Assembly: GCA_016839805.1 (NCBI GenBank)
Contig: JAEOTO010000031.1
Span: 62,001 to 126,000 of the forward strand
Reading direction: 5' to 3'
DNA: 64,000 bases
Origin: Candidatus Hermodarchaeota archaeon
Lineage (GTDB): Archaea; Asgardarchaeota; Hermodarchaeia; Hermodarchaeales; Hermodarchaeaceae
Position numbers and translations under genes: made by a program. The notes below the pieces were generated by a model. The model was not told the origin of the DNA. It ran no database searches and saw nothing but the letters and a program-made list of their open reading frames with translations. Below, one piece after another: positions 4,524 to 19,795 of the stretch (position 1 is the first letter of the stretch; the number at the start of each line of letters is the position of its first letter).

Positions 4524-4542
4524 TGTTCAAAAATGTTGAACA
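4524..4542. promoter_or_regulatory. Inverted repeat upstream of beta-propeller gene
   Basis: TGTTCAA and TTGAACA form a perfect 7-bp inverted repeat around a 5-bp spacer, ending 60 bp before the start of the beta-propeller gene. This is a plausible dimeric-regulator operator; the binding protein is unknown. Confidence 0.35.
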
Positions 4543-4602
4543 GTATTGTAGTAAATGTTCTATTCTTTAGATTAAAGGTCAATTGTTACAAAATAATACT
4601 TC

Positions 4603-6483
4603 ATGTCAGTTTTCACTAAAGTTAGAAATCGATTACGAGTTTTTCATCATCGTGCTACACCATCTGTTCGGGTGTTACTAATTCTTGCTACGATATTAGG
4701 AAGCACCGCATTCTTGGGTTTTTATTTTGGGTTTGAAAATTCTCCTCCAATACAATTACAACGATTTTCATCATCCATTGCTTTGACCAATTTTCTGGAA
4801 AATCATCACCCTCCACCAATGACTGGGTTATGGGGTGAACAACTAATACTAGGTCAAATTGAATCCACCCCAAGATCAGACTATAGTTTTACTGGAACAA
4901 GTGGTTATTCAACAACGAATGTGCAAACGGAAGGAGTCGATGAGCCGGATAGTGTCAAAACCGATGGAAAATTTATCTATACTATTGTCGAAGAAGAAAT
5001 CGTTGTAGTAGACGCATATCCCCCTGAAACTGCGAAAATCATCTCTAGAATTCAACTTTCCGGAAGCCCACTTGCTCTTTTTATACATACCTCATCGAAA
5101 ATTGTAATAATTGAGCAGAATGTTGGAGAAGTCATTATCGAAATTTTTGATACCTCTAATCCCGAAGAAATTACTTTAGATTTTTGGCTGAAACTTACTG
5201 GATACTATCATGGCGCACGGATGATTGGTCAGTACGTATACCTAATAGCCCATTCATATGTGCAAGATGATCAGGGTATAGCCTTGCCCTTTGTAGAAAC
5301 ATCCAAGAGCTACTACCCTGTGCCTGTAGAGAACATCTACTATGATCCAGGTGCCTATGACTATGGTTTCAACTACAAAATGATTGTTTGCTTCGATATC
5401 ACTGATTCAGAAGCAGATCCGGATATAGAGACAATCCTGGTGGGTGGCTCAACATGCACACTTTATTCATCACTGAACAACATTTACCTCGCTGTATCCC
5501 GATACCCCCTTCTAACTCGAAGCGCGTTCGATAAAAAAACTGCCATTCATCGGTTTCAAATAAATGCAGGAGATGTCTCCTACAAGGCTAGTGGCATTAT
5601 CCCAGGTTATCTTATCAACCAATTTGCGTTAGACGAAGCTCAAGCGTATCTTCGAGTGGCCACTACCAGCTGGTTCCAGACTCTGCTTACACCTGAATTA
5701 GATACAAGACCCTGGATTGAGGTAAGCAACGTTTACATCCTCGATATGAACATGAAAATCGTGGGAAAGGTTGAGGGATTAGCACCTGGAGAGACCATAT
5801 ATTCTGCTCGCTTCGTTGGAACTACTGCATATCTGGTTACTTTCTACAAAACGGATCCATTATTCATCATCGATCTGACTCTTCCACAACACCCGAAACT
5901 TTTAGGTGAATTAGTGATTCCTGGTTACTCAGATTATCTTCATCCGTTAGATAACGGGTTCTTATTGGGACTGGGTAAAGATGTAATAGCCAGTGAGACT
6001 GAACAATGGTGGTATCAAGGCGTCAAGGTGAGCTTATTTAACATAACTAACCCGATTCAGCCTGAAGAGACTGAACGCCTTATAATTGGGGATCGGGGAA
6101 CAGAATCAGAGGCATTATATGACCACAAAGCCGTCTTAGTTGATACCAACCGTAATTTGCTAGTTATCCCCATTTGTTTAGCTGAACATCCAGAGGGGTC
6201 GACTCCAGAACCATATGACCATGGAGATATTGTTTGGCAAGGAGCATATATCTTCAAACTCAATACAACTAGCGGACAAATCGAGCTTCGAGGGGAAATT
6301 ACACATCTAGAAGATCTTGAAGCATTCCAAGAGGATTGGTGGGACTTTCGAGACTTCTTCATTAGTCGAACCTTGTTTATTGGTGACGTTCTTTACACAA
6401 TCTCACAGCAAACCCTCATGTATCACAGTCTATCTAATCTCAATTACATTGGTGAAATTCAACTCACGTCAGGCAGTGTGTGA
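4603..6483 (+). CDS. Exported beta-propeller domain protein
   Basis: A 626-residue protein with one N-terminal hydrophobic anchor (residues about 24-44, LLILATILGSTAFLGFYFGF) and a large extracytoplasmic region. The sequence TTNVQTEGVDEPDSVKTDG followed by IYTI is the hallmark start of the archaeal/bacterial Beta_propel family (secreted C-terminal-propeller proteins). Repeated blade-like strands (VYLIAHSY, NIYLAVSRY, YLRVATTSW, LLGLGKDV) follow to the end. No catalytic residues are recognised; these proteins are thought to sit on the cell surface. It converges on the GltA-like gene with only 4 bp between stop codons. An inverted repeat at 4524-4542 may regulate it. The family call is confident and the role unknown. 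Confidence 0.88.
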   Translation: MSVFTKVRNRLRVFHHRATPSVRVLLILATILGSTAFLGFYFGFENSPPIQLQRFSSSIALTNFLENHHPPPMTGLWGEQLILGQIESTPRSDYSFTGTSGYSTTNVQTEGVDEPDSVKTDGKFIYTIVEEEIVVVDAYPPETAKIISRIQLSGSPLALFIHTSSKIVIIEQNVGEVIIEIFDTSNPEEITLDFWLKLTGYYHGARMIGQYVYLIAHSYVQDDQGIALPFVETSKSYYPVPVENIYYDPGAYDYGFNYKMIVCFDITDSEADPDIETILVGGSTCTLYSSLNNIYLAVSRYPLLTRSAFDKKTAIHRFQINAGDVSYKASGIIPGYLINQFALDEAQAYLRVATTSWFQTLLTPELDTRPWIEVSNVYILDMNMKIVGKVEGLAPGETIYSARFVGTTAYLVTFYKTDPLFIIDLTLPQHPKLLGELVIPGYSDYLHPLDNGFLLGLGKDVIASETEQWWYQGVKVSLFNITNPIQPEETERLIIGDRGTESEALYDHKAVLVDTNRNLLVIPICLAEHPEGSTPEPYDHGDIVWQGAYIFKLNTTSGQIELRGEITHLEDLEAFQEDWWDFRDFFISRTLFIGDVLYTISQQTLMYHSLSNLNYIGEIQLTSGSV

Positions 6484-15105: not shown

Positions 15106-15834
15106 TTATTCCCGAATATCGATATTGAGCTTGTCTACTGTGTAAGAATGGGGTTCGTAGGTTTTTGATTCGTAGCGACCTCCAGCCTTCTTAACACGTA
15201 AAGTGCGCACATTGTCAGATTTAGTGAGTTCCATTACAACTTGTGTTGTGTGTTCTATTGCAGCTAGGAACTCCTTCATGTGGGCATTTCGGTTGATTGT
15301 CCAATAAGCCAAGGTTTTGTAAGCATATAACGCGGGGCAGATATGGCTGAAGAATGCCCGTGCATTATCAGGACCCCAGATCACTTCCATTGCAGTAAGG
15401 CTGTTAAATACGAGGCGGGTTCCATCACTGATAAATTCACGTTCGATACGACCAAAGAAGTGATGAAACCGTTCCATATCCCGGGACATTGGAATTTTCC
15501 GAATCCATGAAGGGGCCTTATCGTAGAAATCAGTGAAGATTAGTTCGCCACGTCCACCAGATTCAGTGAAACAGTCCAATACTAGTAAATGGTCTTCCCA
15601 CCCCTGCGGTAAGGAGTCAACCAGAGGTTTTAGAAACAGGAGTAAGGCTTGTGGTGGATAAATGAAGTCTAAATAAATGACTTGATTCTTTTCTGCGATG
15701 CCTTGTCGCATGAAATTATGAGAGAATTCGTTTACGAAAGTTCCGGTTTCATATTCCCAGACAACATTTTCGCCTAATATGAGACCTTTTTCAAGGACTT
15801 TATCAAGTCCTGGTATGCCGGTTGAACAACGCAT
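15106..15834 (-). CDS. RecA/KaiC (RAD55)-superfamily protein with degenerate P-loop
   Basis: A 242-residue protein with the RecA-like layout of archaeal KaiC/RAD55 paralogues. It starts with the diagnostic STGIPGLDKVLEKGLILGENVV, has a strand ending VIYLDFIYPP, a Walker-B-like region (RLVFNSLTAMEVIWG) and the late AYWTINRNAH strand. Where Walker A should be, it reads WEYETGTFVNEFS, with no GKT/S lysine, so ATP hydrolysis is doubtful. Such proteins often work as signalling or scaffold components. It stands alone, divergent from the glutamate dehydrogenase gene 137 bp away. The fold is well supported, the function unknown. Confidence 0.8.
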   Translation of the reverse strand: MRCSTGIPGLDKVLEKGLILGENVVWEYETGTFVNEFSHNFMRQGIAEKNQVIYLDFIYPPQALLLFLKPLVDSLPQGWEDHLLVLDCFTESGGRGELIFTDFYDKAPSWIRKIPMSRDMERFHHFFGRIEREFISDGTRLVFNSLTAMEVIWGPDNARAFFSHICPALYAYKTLAYWTINRNAHMKEFLAAIEHTTQVVMELTKSDNVRTLRVKKAGGRYESKTYEPHSYTVDKLNIDIRE

Positions 15835-15894: not shown

Positions 15895-15940
15895 TGTACA
15901 TAAGTGAACAAAATGAACACAAGCTTTGAATAGTTGAACA
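15895..15940. promoter_or_regulatory. TGWACA box cluster upstream of gdhA
   Basis: TGTACA lies at 15895-15900, with TGAACA copies at 15905-15910, 15914-15919 and 15935-15940. The last two are 21 bp apart, the same spacing seen between TGTACA boxes in front of the large ribbon-helix-helix gene at 17783-17830. The cluster ends 30 bp before the gdhA start and is a candidate operator. Confidence 0.4.
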
Positions 15941-15970: not shown

Positions 15971-17731
15971 ATGCTGAACCTGGTTGAACTTACTCCACTA
16001 GAATTGGGTTTGAAGAAGTTGATGGTTGACTTCTTCGTTGATAAACCTCAATACACCGCGGGTCTCGAACAGTTCACATCTGCTCATTACGCATTAATGA
16101 CCGCGCTTTCTCAGAATTTCAAGATTCCCATGGAAGACACTACTCAAGTGTTTGACAGTCTAGCTACAAAGATCCGCAGTGCTGAATATATGAAAGTTGA
16201 ATGTCCTGACACAAGTAGAAGGAATAGCTGCTTATCGCGTAAGGAACTTGACATGCTGAACATTATGATTGAGTATTTCGGTGAGGAGTCCTTCGCGGAA
16301 TCGAGCTTTCTTTCCGATCGAAGGGAAGCATTAGTTGATCATTATCACTGGATTAACGGTGGTGATATTGAAGAAGCATGGAGTTGCTGTAACGATTTAA
16401 TTGAAAAAATCGAAACCTCAACCGCTATAAAAATTGAAACGCTCAATTCAGTCACCCCAAAGCCTAACCCTTACGAAGCTGCGCTTCAACAACTGGATCT
16501 CGCTGCCGAAAAACTGGGTTTGGACCCGGCCACCCACGAAATTCTTCGTCATCCGCAACGCATTCTCATTGTCACTGTACCTGTTCACATGGATGATGGT
16601 AGTGTCCGTGTGTTTACGGGATATCGATCACAGTACAATGATGCCTTAGGTCCTACTAAAGGCGGAATTCGCTATCATCCCGAAGTAACTTTAGATGAGG
16701 TTATTGCCTTATCAGCTTGGATGACGTTTAAAACCGCAGTCGTGGGTCTGCCTTTGGGTGGCGGTAAAGGCGGGATACGGTGTAATCCCAAAGAGATGTC
16801 TATTGGTGAATTGGAGCGTTTAACACGTGGATATACACGAGAATTAGTTCGATTCATTGGTCCCCAAACCGATATTCCTGCACCTGATGTGTATACCGAT
16901 TCACAGACGATGACTTGGATTATGGATGAATACGCGGAATGCACTGGAGTATACTGTCCAGGTGTCGTTACAGGAAAACCGGTAGGAATTGGTGGTTCAC
17001 AAGGCCGTAATGACGCCACATCACGCGGTCTTGTTTATACTATCATTGATGCCTTAGAACAACTCGGTATTGCTCTAAAAGATACACGTGTCGTAGTTCA
17101 AGGCTTTGGAAATGTTGGTTTCCATGCCGCTCGAATCCTTTCTGAACTTGGTAGTAAAATCATTGCAGTTTCAGATTCAAAGGGTGGCATCTACAACCCG
17201 GAAGGATTGGATCCAGTAAAAGTCAAGGAACACAAAAACCAGACACGCTCAGTTATCCAATATCCTGGTGCTCATCCTCTCAGTAACCACGATCTTCTTG
17301 AACTCGATTGTGAGATTCTTATTCCAGCAGCATTGGAGAATGTAATTACTGAAGAAAACGCCCCACGGATTAAAGCGAAAATAATTGCCGAAGGCGCCAA
17401 TGGCCCGACGACTCCTAAAGCAGATGAAATCATCCATCAAAAAGGAATCTTTCTCATTCCTGACATCCTTGCTAATGCTGGTGGCGTTACGGTGAGTTAT
17501 TTTGAAATGGTCCAAAATCAAATGAACTACTTCTGGACCGTTGAAGAGGTTCATAGCAAACTCGAGAAAATCATGCAAACTGCTTTTCGTGACGTCTTTG
17601 CGATATCCAAAGAACAGGATGTACCAATGAGGATTGCTGCGTACATGCTTGCTGTTAGTCGTATAGGTTATGCCTTTAGAACAAGGAAGCGCTCACTAAT
17701 TATAGACCGAAACACCAGTCCTAACAAATAG
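15971..17731 (+). CDS. gdhA: Glutamate dehydrogenase with a 165-residue N-terminal extension
   Basis: A 586-residue protein; standard hexameric glutamate dehydrogenases are about 420. The enzyme core begins near residue 166 (NPYEAALQQLDLAAEKLGLD) and is intact: substrate-binding GPTKGGIRYHP, catalytic lysine in LPLGGGKGGI (about K266), catalytic aspartate in DIPAPDVYT, and the Rossmann motif VVVQGFGNVGFHAARIL. Residues 1-165 are mostly helical, with cysteines at about 78, 87, 139 and 140, and match no domain I know. The ATG at 15971 is preceded by AGGTGAAGA, which supports the long form. It converts glutamate to 2-oxoglutarate and ammonia, fitting the histidine-to-glutamate genes in this window. 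Boxes upstream suggest repression or activation by the regulator downstream. Confidence 0.93.
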   Translation: MLNLVELTPLELGLKKLMVDFFVDKPQYTAGLEQFTSAHYALMTALSQNFKIPMEDTTQVFDSLATKIRSAEYMKVECPDTSRRNSCLSRKELDMLNIMIEYFGEESFAESSFLSDRREALVDHYHWINGGDIEEAWSCCNDLIEKIETSTAIKIETLNSVTPKPNPYEAALQQLDLAAEKLGLDPATHEILRHPQRILIVTVPVHMDDGSVRVFTGYRSQYNDALGPTKGGIRYHPEVTLDEVIALSAWMTFKTAVVGLPLGGGKGGIRCNPKEMSIGELERLTRGYTRELVRFIGPQTDIPAPDVYTDSQTMTWIMDEYAECTGVYCPGVVTGKPVGIGGSQGRNDATSRGLVYTIIDALEQLGIALKDTRVVVQGFGNVGFHAARILSELGSKIIAVSDSKGGIYNPEGLDPVKVKEHKNQTRSVIQYPGAHPLSNHDLLELDCEILIPAALENVITEENAPRIKAKIIAEGANGPTTPKADEIIHQKGIFLIPDILANAGGVTVSYFEMVQNQMNYFWTVEEVHSKLEKIMQTAFRDVFAISKEQDVPMRIAAYMLAVSRIGYAFRTRKRSLIIDRNTSPNK

Positions 17732-17782: not shown

Positions 17783-17830
17783 TGTACATTCGAGTTTGTG
17801 TAATGTACAACATTAATAAACTAGTGTACA
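17783..17830. promoter_or_regulatory. Three TGTACA boxes phased at 21 bp
   Basis: Perfect palindromes TGTACA occur at 17783-17788, 17804-17809 and 17825-17830, exactly 21 bp apart (two helical turns), ending 24 bp before the start of the ribbon-helix-helix gene. This is an expected arrangement for autoregulation by a short-palindrome-binding dimer. Confidence 0.55.
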
Positions 17831-17854: not shown

Positions 17855-19795
17855 ATGCCTGTTCATATACACACCACCATCCCCGAAAAATCAGCAGAAA
17901 TTTTGAATCAACTAACAGGTACTTATGGAACGAAAAGCCGAGTTCTAGAGAAAGCATTAGAAACCATGACACGCGTTGAGAAGGTCGGCTCCTGTGATGA
18001 TTGTACGTTTAAGGCGCAAATAGAAGAGCGGATGAAATTACGTGAGGCTTTGGAATTAACTTCGATCCGAAAAGATTTGCTTGATGAGCTCCTTAGGGTT
18101 GCTCTTTCAGATCTCACAATGAGTGAATTTATTCAATGGCAAAGAAACGATGCCCAAAACACTATTGAACTCATTCAGAGCTCGATACAGTGGAAGCCAC
18201 CAACTGAATTTCGGGATTTCCTTTCGTTAATTGACCAAATAAGTGAAATTACCCGGCTATTTGATGTCGCTTCACACCGTGAAATGGACAAAACCATCGT
18301 ACTTAGGCCAATCGTATTTCTAAGAATGCCTGAACTGGTAGCATTTCAATTAGCGATCATTCTTGAAGGGATTGGTGTTTACTTCGATCTACGCATAATG
18401 CGAAAAGAAATAATCTTGAAAATGCTTCGAAAGGAGTTAGCAAGTGTCCGAAGAAGTAATCCATTACAATTCATTTCTGAGCGGATGGATGATAAATTCG
18501 GGTCACTTAAACCCCAATTATTCAAGGATCAATTAGTGCTTGTTGGTCCTGCCTTTCTGAAATGGGCCGCTCAAAGCCTCGAGGAATCAATTGCCGATTT
18601 AGGATCTGTAATCGAAGATATTCGGTTGTCCATCAAACCTGCTGAATTCTCGGATAATCCTAAGGAATTCATTGATGGATTAATGCGCGCCGGACGGAAT
18701 ATGAATTGGATAACCCAGGTAAATACCACTCAAGAGTCTGAGAACAACTTTCGTATTAACTTTCAGGCAACATCACCTTCCATGGCGAATATCGCTACAG
18801 TCACCTTTGCGTTAATTCTCGCAACGAAAGGATGGAAGCTCATCCGCTATTCCACCGAGTATGATAATGGGAATATTGTTGTTGAATTCGTTGGGGAAGG
18901 AAGTCAAGAGGTCTTAGACCAGTTAATCGAAATGAACCTGTTTCGAGTCGTTAATCAACAATTTCTTGATTCTATACCGGTTCCCCGAGAACTTTTTGAT
19001 ACATTTGCTATTAAGGTTTACGATAGTGATCGCCGGCGTTTTGAAGAAATCTATCGTAATATTGGCTTTCGCATCGCAAATGCAATTAGAATGTTAGCAA
19101 AGAACGATGAAGAAAAGATTGGACGGCTTATTCGAAGCTACATTGAAAAAAATGTTCATGAAGCACAATCAAATGCTGAACTTCGATTTGTCGATGATGA
19201 AACCTTTTCGGTAGTATTCAGGCAAATGGAGCCAATAACAATAACTAGTCAACAAATAGTAATCAAATCAATGTTGGAGGCACTCGGTTACGAAGTCTCG
19301 GTAACAACATTTCAAAACCTCCTAAACGTGAAAATGAAAAAGGTTGGCAAGCCCCTTCTAGGTCCTCTCCATCGTAGTGAAGTTGTTCAGATGGTGAGTG
19401 ATGCAATTGCTGCTGATTCATTAAAAGATGCGTTGAATCAAGTTAAACCAACATTGGATAAACTGTTTCCTGTTGAATATCCTTGGACGATTCACGAGAT
19501 TGGAGATCGCCTCCTTGACATGTATCGTGAGTTGGGGATTCAAGTTGAAATTGAATACTTTGAAGGAGGATTCACACTCAAATACCGAACGTGCCCCTAT
19601 TACAAACTCGTCGCTAATAATCAAAAAACCTGGCTCTGTAAATTCCGTAAGAAAGCTATTGAATACATCCTATCCCGAGTTACACGTACTGGCAAAGGAA
19701 GAATCAAGGTAATCAAATCGCTCATAGAGGACGGAACACATCCCTGTGAGTATGCAGTTTTTCTTGAAGAATTCTTAGCGAAGTCTCCGGGTTAG
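17855..19795 (+). CDS. Large protein with N-terminal ribbon-helix-helix domain, probable regulator
   Basis: A 646-residue protein. Residues 1-40 (PVHIHTTIPEKSAEILNQL and a following helix KSRVLEKALETM) look like a ribbon-helix-helix DNA-binding fold: one strand with alternating polar residues and two short helices. C47 and C50 follow (SCDDC). The central 500 residues are alpha/beta without recognised family; two segments with similar strand patterns (WITQVNTTQ region near residue 286 and LRFVDDETFSVVF near 440) may be repeats. The C-terminus has a cysteine pattern (CPYYKL, WLCKF, HPCEY) seen in sensory domains of some archaeal regulators. It lies 123 bp after gdhA behind phased TGTACA boxes, so autoregulation and control of gdhA are likely but inferred. 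Confidence 0.75.
   Translation: MPVHIHTTIPEKSAEILNQLTGTYGTKSRVLEKALETMTRVEKVGSCDDCTFKAQIEERMKLREALELTSIRKDLLDELLRVALSDLTMSEFIQWQRNDAQNTIELIQSSIQWKPPTEFRDFLSLIDQISEITRLFDVASHREMDKTIVLRPIVFLRMPELVAFQLAIILEGIGVYFDLRIMRKEIILKMLRKELASVRRSNPLQFISERMDDKFGSLKPQLFKDQLVLVGPAFLKWAAQSLEESIADLGSVIEDIRLSIKPAEFSDNPKEFIDGLMRAGRNMNWITQVNTTQESENNFRINFQATSPSMANIATVTFALILATKGWKLIRYSTEYDNGNIVVEFVGEGSQEVLDQLIEMNLFRVVNQQFLDSIPVPRELFDTFAIKVYDSDRRRFEEIYRNIGFRIANAIRMLAKNDEEKIGRLIRSYIEKNVHEAQSNAELRFVDDETFSVVFRQMEPITITSQQIVIKSMLEALGYEVSVTTFQNLLNVKMKKVGKPLLGPLHRSEVVQMVSDAIAADSLKDALNQVKPTLDKLFPVEYPWTIHEIGDRLLDMYRELGIQVEIEYFEGGFTLKYRTCPYYKLVANNQKTWLCKFRKKAIEYILSRVTRTGKGRIKVIKSLIEDGTHPCEYAVFLEEFLAKSPG

Follow-up and report, generated by a model that had tools for sequence, protein, structure and literature searches.

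Comparative analysis suggested that the product of the gene at 17855–19795 (+ strand) in a Hermodarchaeota genome is very probably a repressor of its own synthesis, whose ribbon-helix-helix (RHH) domain would act on phased operators made of TGWACA boxes, with its own gene and the glutamate dehydrogenase gene gdhA as targets. The window, the whole stretch of DNA analyzed here, is 64,000 nucleotides long. A first-pass annotation of the window had put forward an RHH regulator that has phased operators of its own and controls gdhA as well, and comparative tests support both parts of this proposal. Independent RHH paralogues that share the contact strand have these boxes, whole turns apart, in front of their own genes, and in another Asgard family the gdhA operator geometry is found ahead of genes for amino-acid and peptide catabolism. 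Asgard archaea are hard to grow, and little is known about their gene control. A common box code before catabolism genes in other Asgard genomes makes the regulator and its likely targets readable from sequence.

Phased boxes precede the proposed regulator gene and gdhA

Three TGTACA boxes are located 25–72 bp 5' of the start codon of the 646-aa regulator gene: box 1 at 17783–17788 (−72), box 2 at 17804–17809 (−51), and box 3 at 17825–17830 (−30). The exact 21-bp spacing, equal to two helix turns, that had been reported for TGTACA at 17783, 17804, and 17825 (+ strand) was confirmed. Pattern searches of the whole 2.31-Mb Hermodarchaeota MAG revealed only two occurrences of TGTACA-N15-TGTACA, which overlap and both fall in this array, and the reversed control pattern gave none in the genome; the array is thus unique rather than one of many equally spaced pairs. 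Inspection of related genomes, also proposed in the first pass, revealed that the boxes and their spacing are kept in congeners: four of five congeneric MAGs have the array at −72/−51/−30, and the fifth has −51/−30 only, with box 1 present in 4/5 and boxes 2 and 3 in 5/5 genomes. The spacer between boxes 1 and 2 has diverged in these promoters, while the boxes are kept. The AT-rich octamer TTAATAAA between boxes 2 and 3 (17813–17820, + strand) is a putative TATA box, and it is invariant in the 5-species alignment although the box 1–box 2 spacer diverges.

The gene order of a divergent KaiC-like gene, gdhA, and the RHH gene is the same in 5/5 congeneric MAGs, and an ADP-forming CoA-ligase gene comes after the RHH gene in the stretches from 4/5 of them. 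Conserved boxes 5' of the start of this acyl-CoA synthetase gene (19916) were not found. In the sister genus, the RHH gene again adjoins gdhA, with two boxes 20 bp apart 5' of the RHH gene.

The gdhA gene (15971–17731, + strand; 586 aa, PF00208/PF02812) is a predicted target and is preceded by four boxes: TGTACA at 15895–15900 (−76), TGAACA at 15905–15910 (−66; TGTACA in two species), TGAACA at 15914–15919 (−57), and TGAACA at 15935–15940 (−36). The steps are 10/9/21 bp, the 21-bp step being that from box 3 to box 4 (15914 to 15935). The cluster of one TGTACA and three TGAACA with a 21-bp interval that had been noted before gdhA is therefore real, and it is conserved in six genomes, namely five congeners (TGTACA −76, TGWACA −66, TGAACA −57, and TGAACA −36 in 5/5) and the sister genus (TGTTCA −77, TGTACA −67, TGAACA −58, and TGAACA −37). 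Across the congeneric MAGs, most of the spacer sequence of this promoter has diverged, while the boxes are kept. The conserved octamer TTTGAATA (15925–15932, + strand), which lies between boxes 3 and 4, is a putative TATA element of gdhA. A KaiC-like ATPase gene (15106–15834, − strand) diverges from gdhA and has the operator region in common with it; it is a possible second target that may be co-regulated through this region. The divergent KaiC-like/gdhA arrangement is common to the five congeners and the sister genus, and is seen in G007. The gdhA product carries an N-terminal extension of ~160 aa (15971–16450) without a Pfam match; of 225 Asgard genomes, only those of this genus and a single one from the sister genus have it.

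Genome-wide searches with TGWACA-N15-TGWACA gave other single matches per genome, and recurrence across species was observed only at the gdhA and RHH promoters. Within the Hermodarchaeota family, clusters of at least three boxes recurred across species at three genes only: gdhA, the RHH gene, and a beta-propeller gene (two species, not phased). The last of these clusters (TGTTCA, TGAACA, and TGTTCT or TGTTCA; 4524–4561) lies before a secreted beta-propeller-like gene (4603–6483) and is conserved in one sister genome, G001; its box steps of 13 and 19 are not helically phased, and we do not claim the gene as a target of the regulator.

Predicted structure of the regulator

The regulator consists of an N-terminal RHH domain, as predicted, and a large C-terminal region. 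The protein gave no significant match to Pfam and NCBIfam models, and its N-terminus gave no usable match in Pfam, NCBIfam, and PDB sequence searches. Two relatives match TIGR02606 (ParD) weakly (E 0.08), and no relative was found in viral contigs. In the AlphaFold2 model of the N-terminal 74 residues, built with 38 relatives, residues 3–9 form an extended strand followed by two helices (11–24 and 27–44), with a pLDDT of 86–95 across residues 1–40. CopG (2cpg) superimposes on this model with an rmsd of 1.4 Å over 44 residues and NikR (2caj and 2wvd) with about 1.5 Å over 42–43 residues; Arc and ParD are also among the superpositions. The best Foldseek matches are RHH proteins, though with weak E-values. 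The model and superpositions agree with the earlier statement that the protein starts with an RHH fold, and place a predicted DNA-binding domain of this type at residues 1–44 (17855–17986, + strand). The protein is a predicted member of an Asgard RHH family. The predicted contact strand is VHIHTTIP (residues 3–10). A CxxC motif (C47 and C50; 17993–18004, + strand) is invariant in orthologues and kept in relatives from the Asgard family f28.

Sensor domains resembling TRAPP and H-NOX are probably present in the C-terminal part, a more tentative assignment because the confidence of the full-length AlphaFold2 model, built with five orthologues, is poor (pLDDT 52); full-length fold matches are for the same reason treated as leads. 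Residues 377–498 (18983–19348, + strand) form a predicted TRAPP/Bet3-like domain (VIA-align Z of 8.7 to Bet3 over 121 residues, moderate-confidence model), while residues 506–646 (19370–19792, + strand) form a predicted H-NOX/TRAPP-like domain (VIA-align Z about 7 to 8; 6.7–7.8 for H-NOX, in a model with overall pLDDT 52). The latter domain contains three invariant cysteines (C580, C595, and C631) and matches MetOD1 weakly (E 0.045). At threshold, the full-length regulator matched no Pfam domain; where NikR has a C-terminal nickel-binding ACT-like domain, the low-confidence model suggests TRAPP/H-NOX folds.

A four-box operator recurs across Asgard genomes

We searched 227 Asgard genomes for the geometry of the gdhA operator (steps 10/9/21) and found 35 four-box sites in 16 of them. 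The reversed pattern gave 0 sites in the 227 genomes, and an off-phase version gave 0 sites in the 16 genomes bearing the pattern. The sites are located at gdhA in six Hermodarchaeota-family genomes and at several loci each in ten f28 genomes, where many are near the RHH gene. All 34 readable sites lie 40–132 bp upstream of gdhA or of a gene for peptide, amino-acid, or methylamine catabolism, and in the same orientation. Their predicted targets are gdhA (6), class-III aminotransferase (Aminotran_3, 9), the corrinoid protein of an MtmB-like system (8), M28 peptidase (7), the peptide-binding protein of an ABC transporter (SBP_bac_5, 3), and carbon-nitrogen hydrolase (CN_hydrolase, 1). In both lineages, the last two boxes are separated by a TATA-like octamer, and the register of TTTGAATA is similar to that of the f28 octamers. 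The window protein and the f28 regulators are related by profile homology (317 columns, probability 97.6, E 4.6e-12).

Two further observations concern f28 gene content. MtmB-like (PF05369) methyltransferase genes without an in-frame stop (L173:12852–14231 and L175:6622–8001) adjoin the corrinoid protein gene under the four-box operator, with a RACo-type activator gene near. In addition, the peptide transporter genes are accompanied by a gene for a secreted protein of the BPL_N type (PF09825) (L174:6916–7956 and L176:6003–6974).

Proposed mechanism

We propose that the three TGTACA boxes form the autoregulatory operator of the 17855–19795 product. One RHH dimer would occupy each hexamer (TGTACA, TGAACA, or TGTTCA), placing its two-stranded sheet in the major groove and contacting the hexamer through strand residues H4, H6, and T8. 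Boxes at whole helical turns (10, 21, and 31 bp) would bring the dimers onto one face of the DNA, where the large C-terminal part may link them together and make binding cooperative. Because the putative TATA box lies between boxes 2 and 3 at the regulator gene and between boxes 3 and 4 at gdhA, binding would most likely block TBP/TFB and thereby repress both genes. The TRAPP/H-NOX-like domains and conserved cysteines may sense amino-acid, nitrogen, or redox state, leading to release of the DNA. In f28, the genes under control of the four-box operator would be those for peptidases, aminotransferases, the transport of peptides, and a methyltransferase system of the corrinoid type. Peptide uptake, peptidases, transamination, gdhA, and the ADP-forming acyl-CoA synthetase-type neighbor together suggest amino-acid or nitrogen status as the signal.

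The same protein and operators could instead serve an activator, or a ligand-switched dual regulator, that recruits TBP/TFB from the upstream boxes. Boxes 1–3 do lie upstream of the putative TATA element at gdhA and at the f28 targets, a position from which archaeal activators can act, and the long operators of fixed geometry would suit such a role. However, each four-box operator, like the RHH promoter, has its last box immediately 3' of the TATA-like octamer, and a protein bound there would overlap the preinitiation complex. Arrays that surround a gene's own TATA box are, moreover, typical of autoregulatory repressors, and we consider activation unlikely and favor autoregulatory repression.

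The box follows the contact strand

A profile search with the regulator N-terminus retrieved relatives from many Asgard genomes. For 54 RHH relatives, we counted TGTACA/TGAACA/TGTTCA boxes in the 260 bp 5' of the gene, with expectations from dinucleotide shuffles. All genes encoding an xH[LI]HTT[IV] strand (22/22) have boxes upstream, with 69 boxes in total against 6.9 in shuffles (maximum 14). Their consecutive spacings are mostly 10, 20/21, and 31/32 bp, and the phase at 10.5 bp, taking one spacing set per genus, gave a resultant of 0.91 (p about 1e-5). The SIHTT-type genes (n = 8) have 18 boxes against 2.1 expected, mostly 22 bp apart. The SVHAT paralogues (n = 8) have a single TGWACA-type box in total (1.5 expected), and so do 14 other relatives (1.8 expected). 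The SVHAT upstream regions are enriched for TGTCAC/ATGTCAC instead of TGWACA, and an unsupervised k-mer count returned TGTACA as the top hexamer in the HxHTT class and GTGACA/TGTCAC in the SVHAT class. Since the box follows the contact strand, we argue that the adjacent RHH protein itself reads the box upstream of its gene.

The SVHAT paralogues, from the Asgard family f19 (L085, L086, L088, L090, L093, L100, L101, and L102), apparently represent a sister class of regulators whose box has changed, and their upstream TGTCA/TGACA boxes are often at steps of about 21, 43, or 64 bp. A second Asgard RHH group (L117–L122; about 220 aa) has the strand KPIYVKVS/KSIYVKVS and lacks TGWACA boxes upstream.

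Box and protein also co-occur across genomes. The four-box pattern is present in 14/22 genomes with an HxHTT RHH protein vs 2/205 others (Fisher p 5e-15; such p-values overstate independence because the genomes are related). The 8 genomes with a short HxHTT RHH protein are without the four-box pattern, yet have boxes at the regulator's own promoter. In G196 and G215 (85–87% complete), four-box sites are present, and the RHH gene was not detected.

TGTACA is also the core of the TRP box of TrpY from Methanothermobacter. It is likewise the core of YefM-YoeB operators (PMC4803016). The hexamer alone is therefore not diagnostic of an RHH protein, and the boxes might be bound by some other, unlinked regulator, such as one resembling TrpY or YefM, with the RHH gene among its targets; the operators in G196 and G215 would agree with this. 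Such a regulator does not predict that the box changes with the adjacent RHH contact strand (TGWACA with HxHTT, TGTCAC with SVHAT), nor that box and protein co-occur across genomes. The RHH assignment rests on this covariation and co-occurrence rather than on the hexamer, and we regard an unlinked regulator as improbable and retain the RHH protein as the reader of the boxes. The probability that the array arose by chance, or as a neutral repeat, and has no regulatory meaning is negligible: single TGTACA does occur at background frequency in the window (17 vs 13 expected, no enrichment), but the 21-bp pair is unique genome-wide, the boxes are conserved amid diverged spacers, and 35 four-box sites stand against 0 in controls, all 34 readable ones before related catabolic genes.

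A proposed Asgard regulator family and its relation to known systems

The Asgard regulator appears to be previously undescribed: it has no significant match to a curated family, and our searches of open-access papers revealed no description of Asgard RHH operators. It would work like RHH repressors of the NikR, MetJ, and CopG type. The regulator family, its boxes, the operator geometry, and a coherent target set are defined here from sequence, and the paralogue controls tie strand to box. Regulon prediction hence becomes possible for peptide- and amino-acid-using Asgard archaea, and binding specificity is open to in vitro testing. We tentatively raise the possibility of a phylum-wide Asgard family in which an RHH reader is joined to TRAPP/H-NOX-like sensors, the strand predicts the box (HxHTT/TGWACA, SVHAT/TGTCAC), and phased operators of fixed geometry control amino-acid and peptide catabolism. 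If true, the closest archaeal relatives of eukaryotes would have a regulon that can be read from sequence, and a TRAPP-like fold would serve a purpose other than trafficking.

TrpY is an archaeal repressor in amino-acid metabolism, and the overlapping promoters on which it acts include that of its own gene (PMC6737238). By description, it resembles the Asgard regulator in its box sequence and in the repressor role proposed here, whereas the predicted Asgard targets are catabolic and the Asgard protein has no significant Pfam/NCBIfam match. The YefM-YoeB and Axe-Txe systems also combine TGTACA core palindromes with autoregulation, and their spacing matters (PMC4803016). Unlike the Asgard regulator, YefM has a Phd/YefM fold, a 12-bp spacing, and a paired toxin gene; no toxin gene is adjacent to the regulator in the window or in congeners, where it is flanked by gdhA and the gene for an ADP-forming ligase of the acyl-CoA synthetase type. 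CdrS, an archaeal RHH transcription regulator of ftsZ2 and of cell division (PMC7439475), is set beside the Asgard regulator by description only, and TGTACA boxes are unmentioned in that paper.

The CopG/Arc/MetJ/ParD-type proteins are similar in RHH fold, repeated palindromic boxes, and autoregulation, the last being predicted here. They are short proteins, whereas the Asgard RHH domain is followed by about 600 further residues, and the Asgard boxes differ from theirs in that one, two, or three whole turns separate them. In NikR, the half-sites of the operator are about two helical turns apart, and an N-terminal RHH domain is fused to a C-terminal sensing domain, as predicted for the Asgard regulator. 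In contrast to NikR, the Asgard C-terminal region is far larger and predicted to be TRAPP/H-NOX-like, with no similarity seen to the NikR C-terminal domain; the box sequence is another one, and Asgard operators contain up to four boxes vs two half-sites in NikR.
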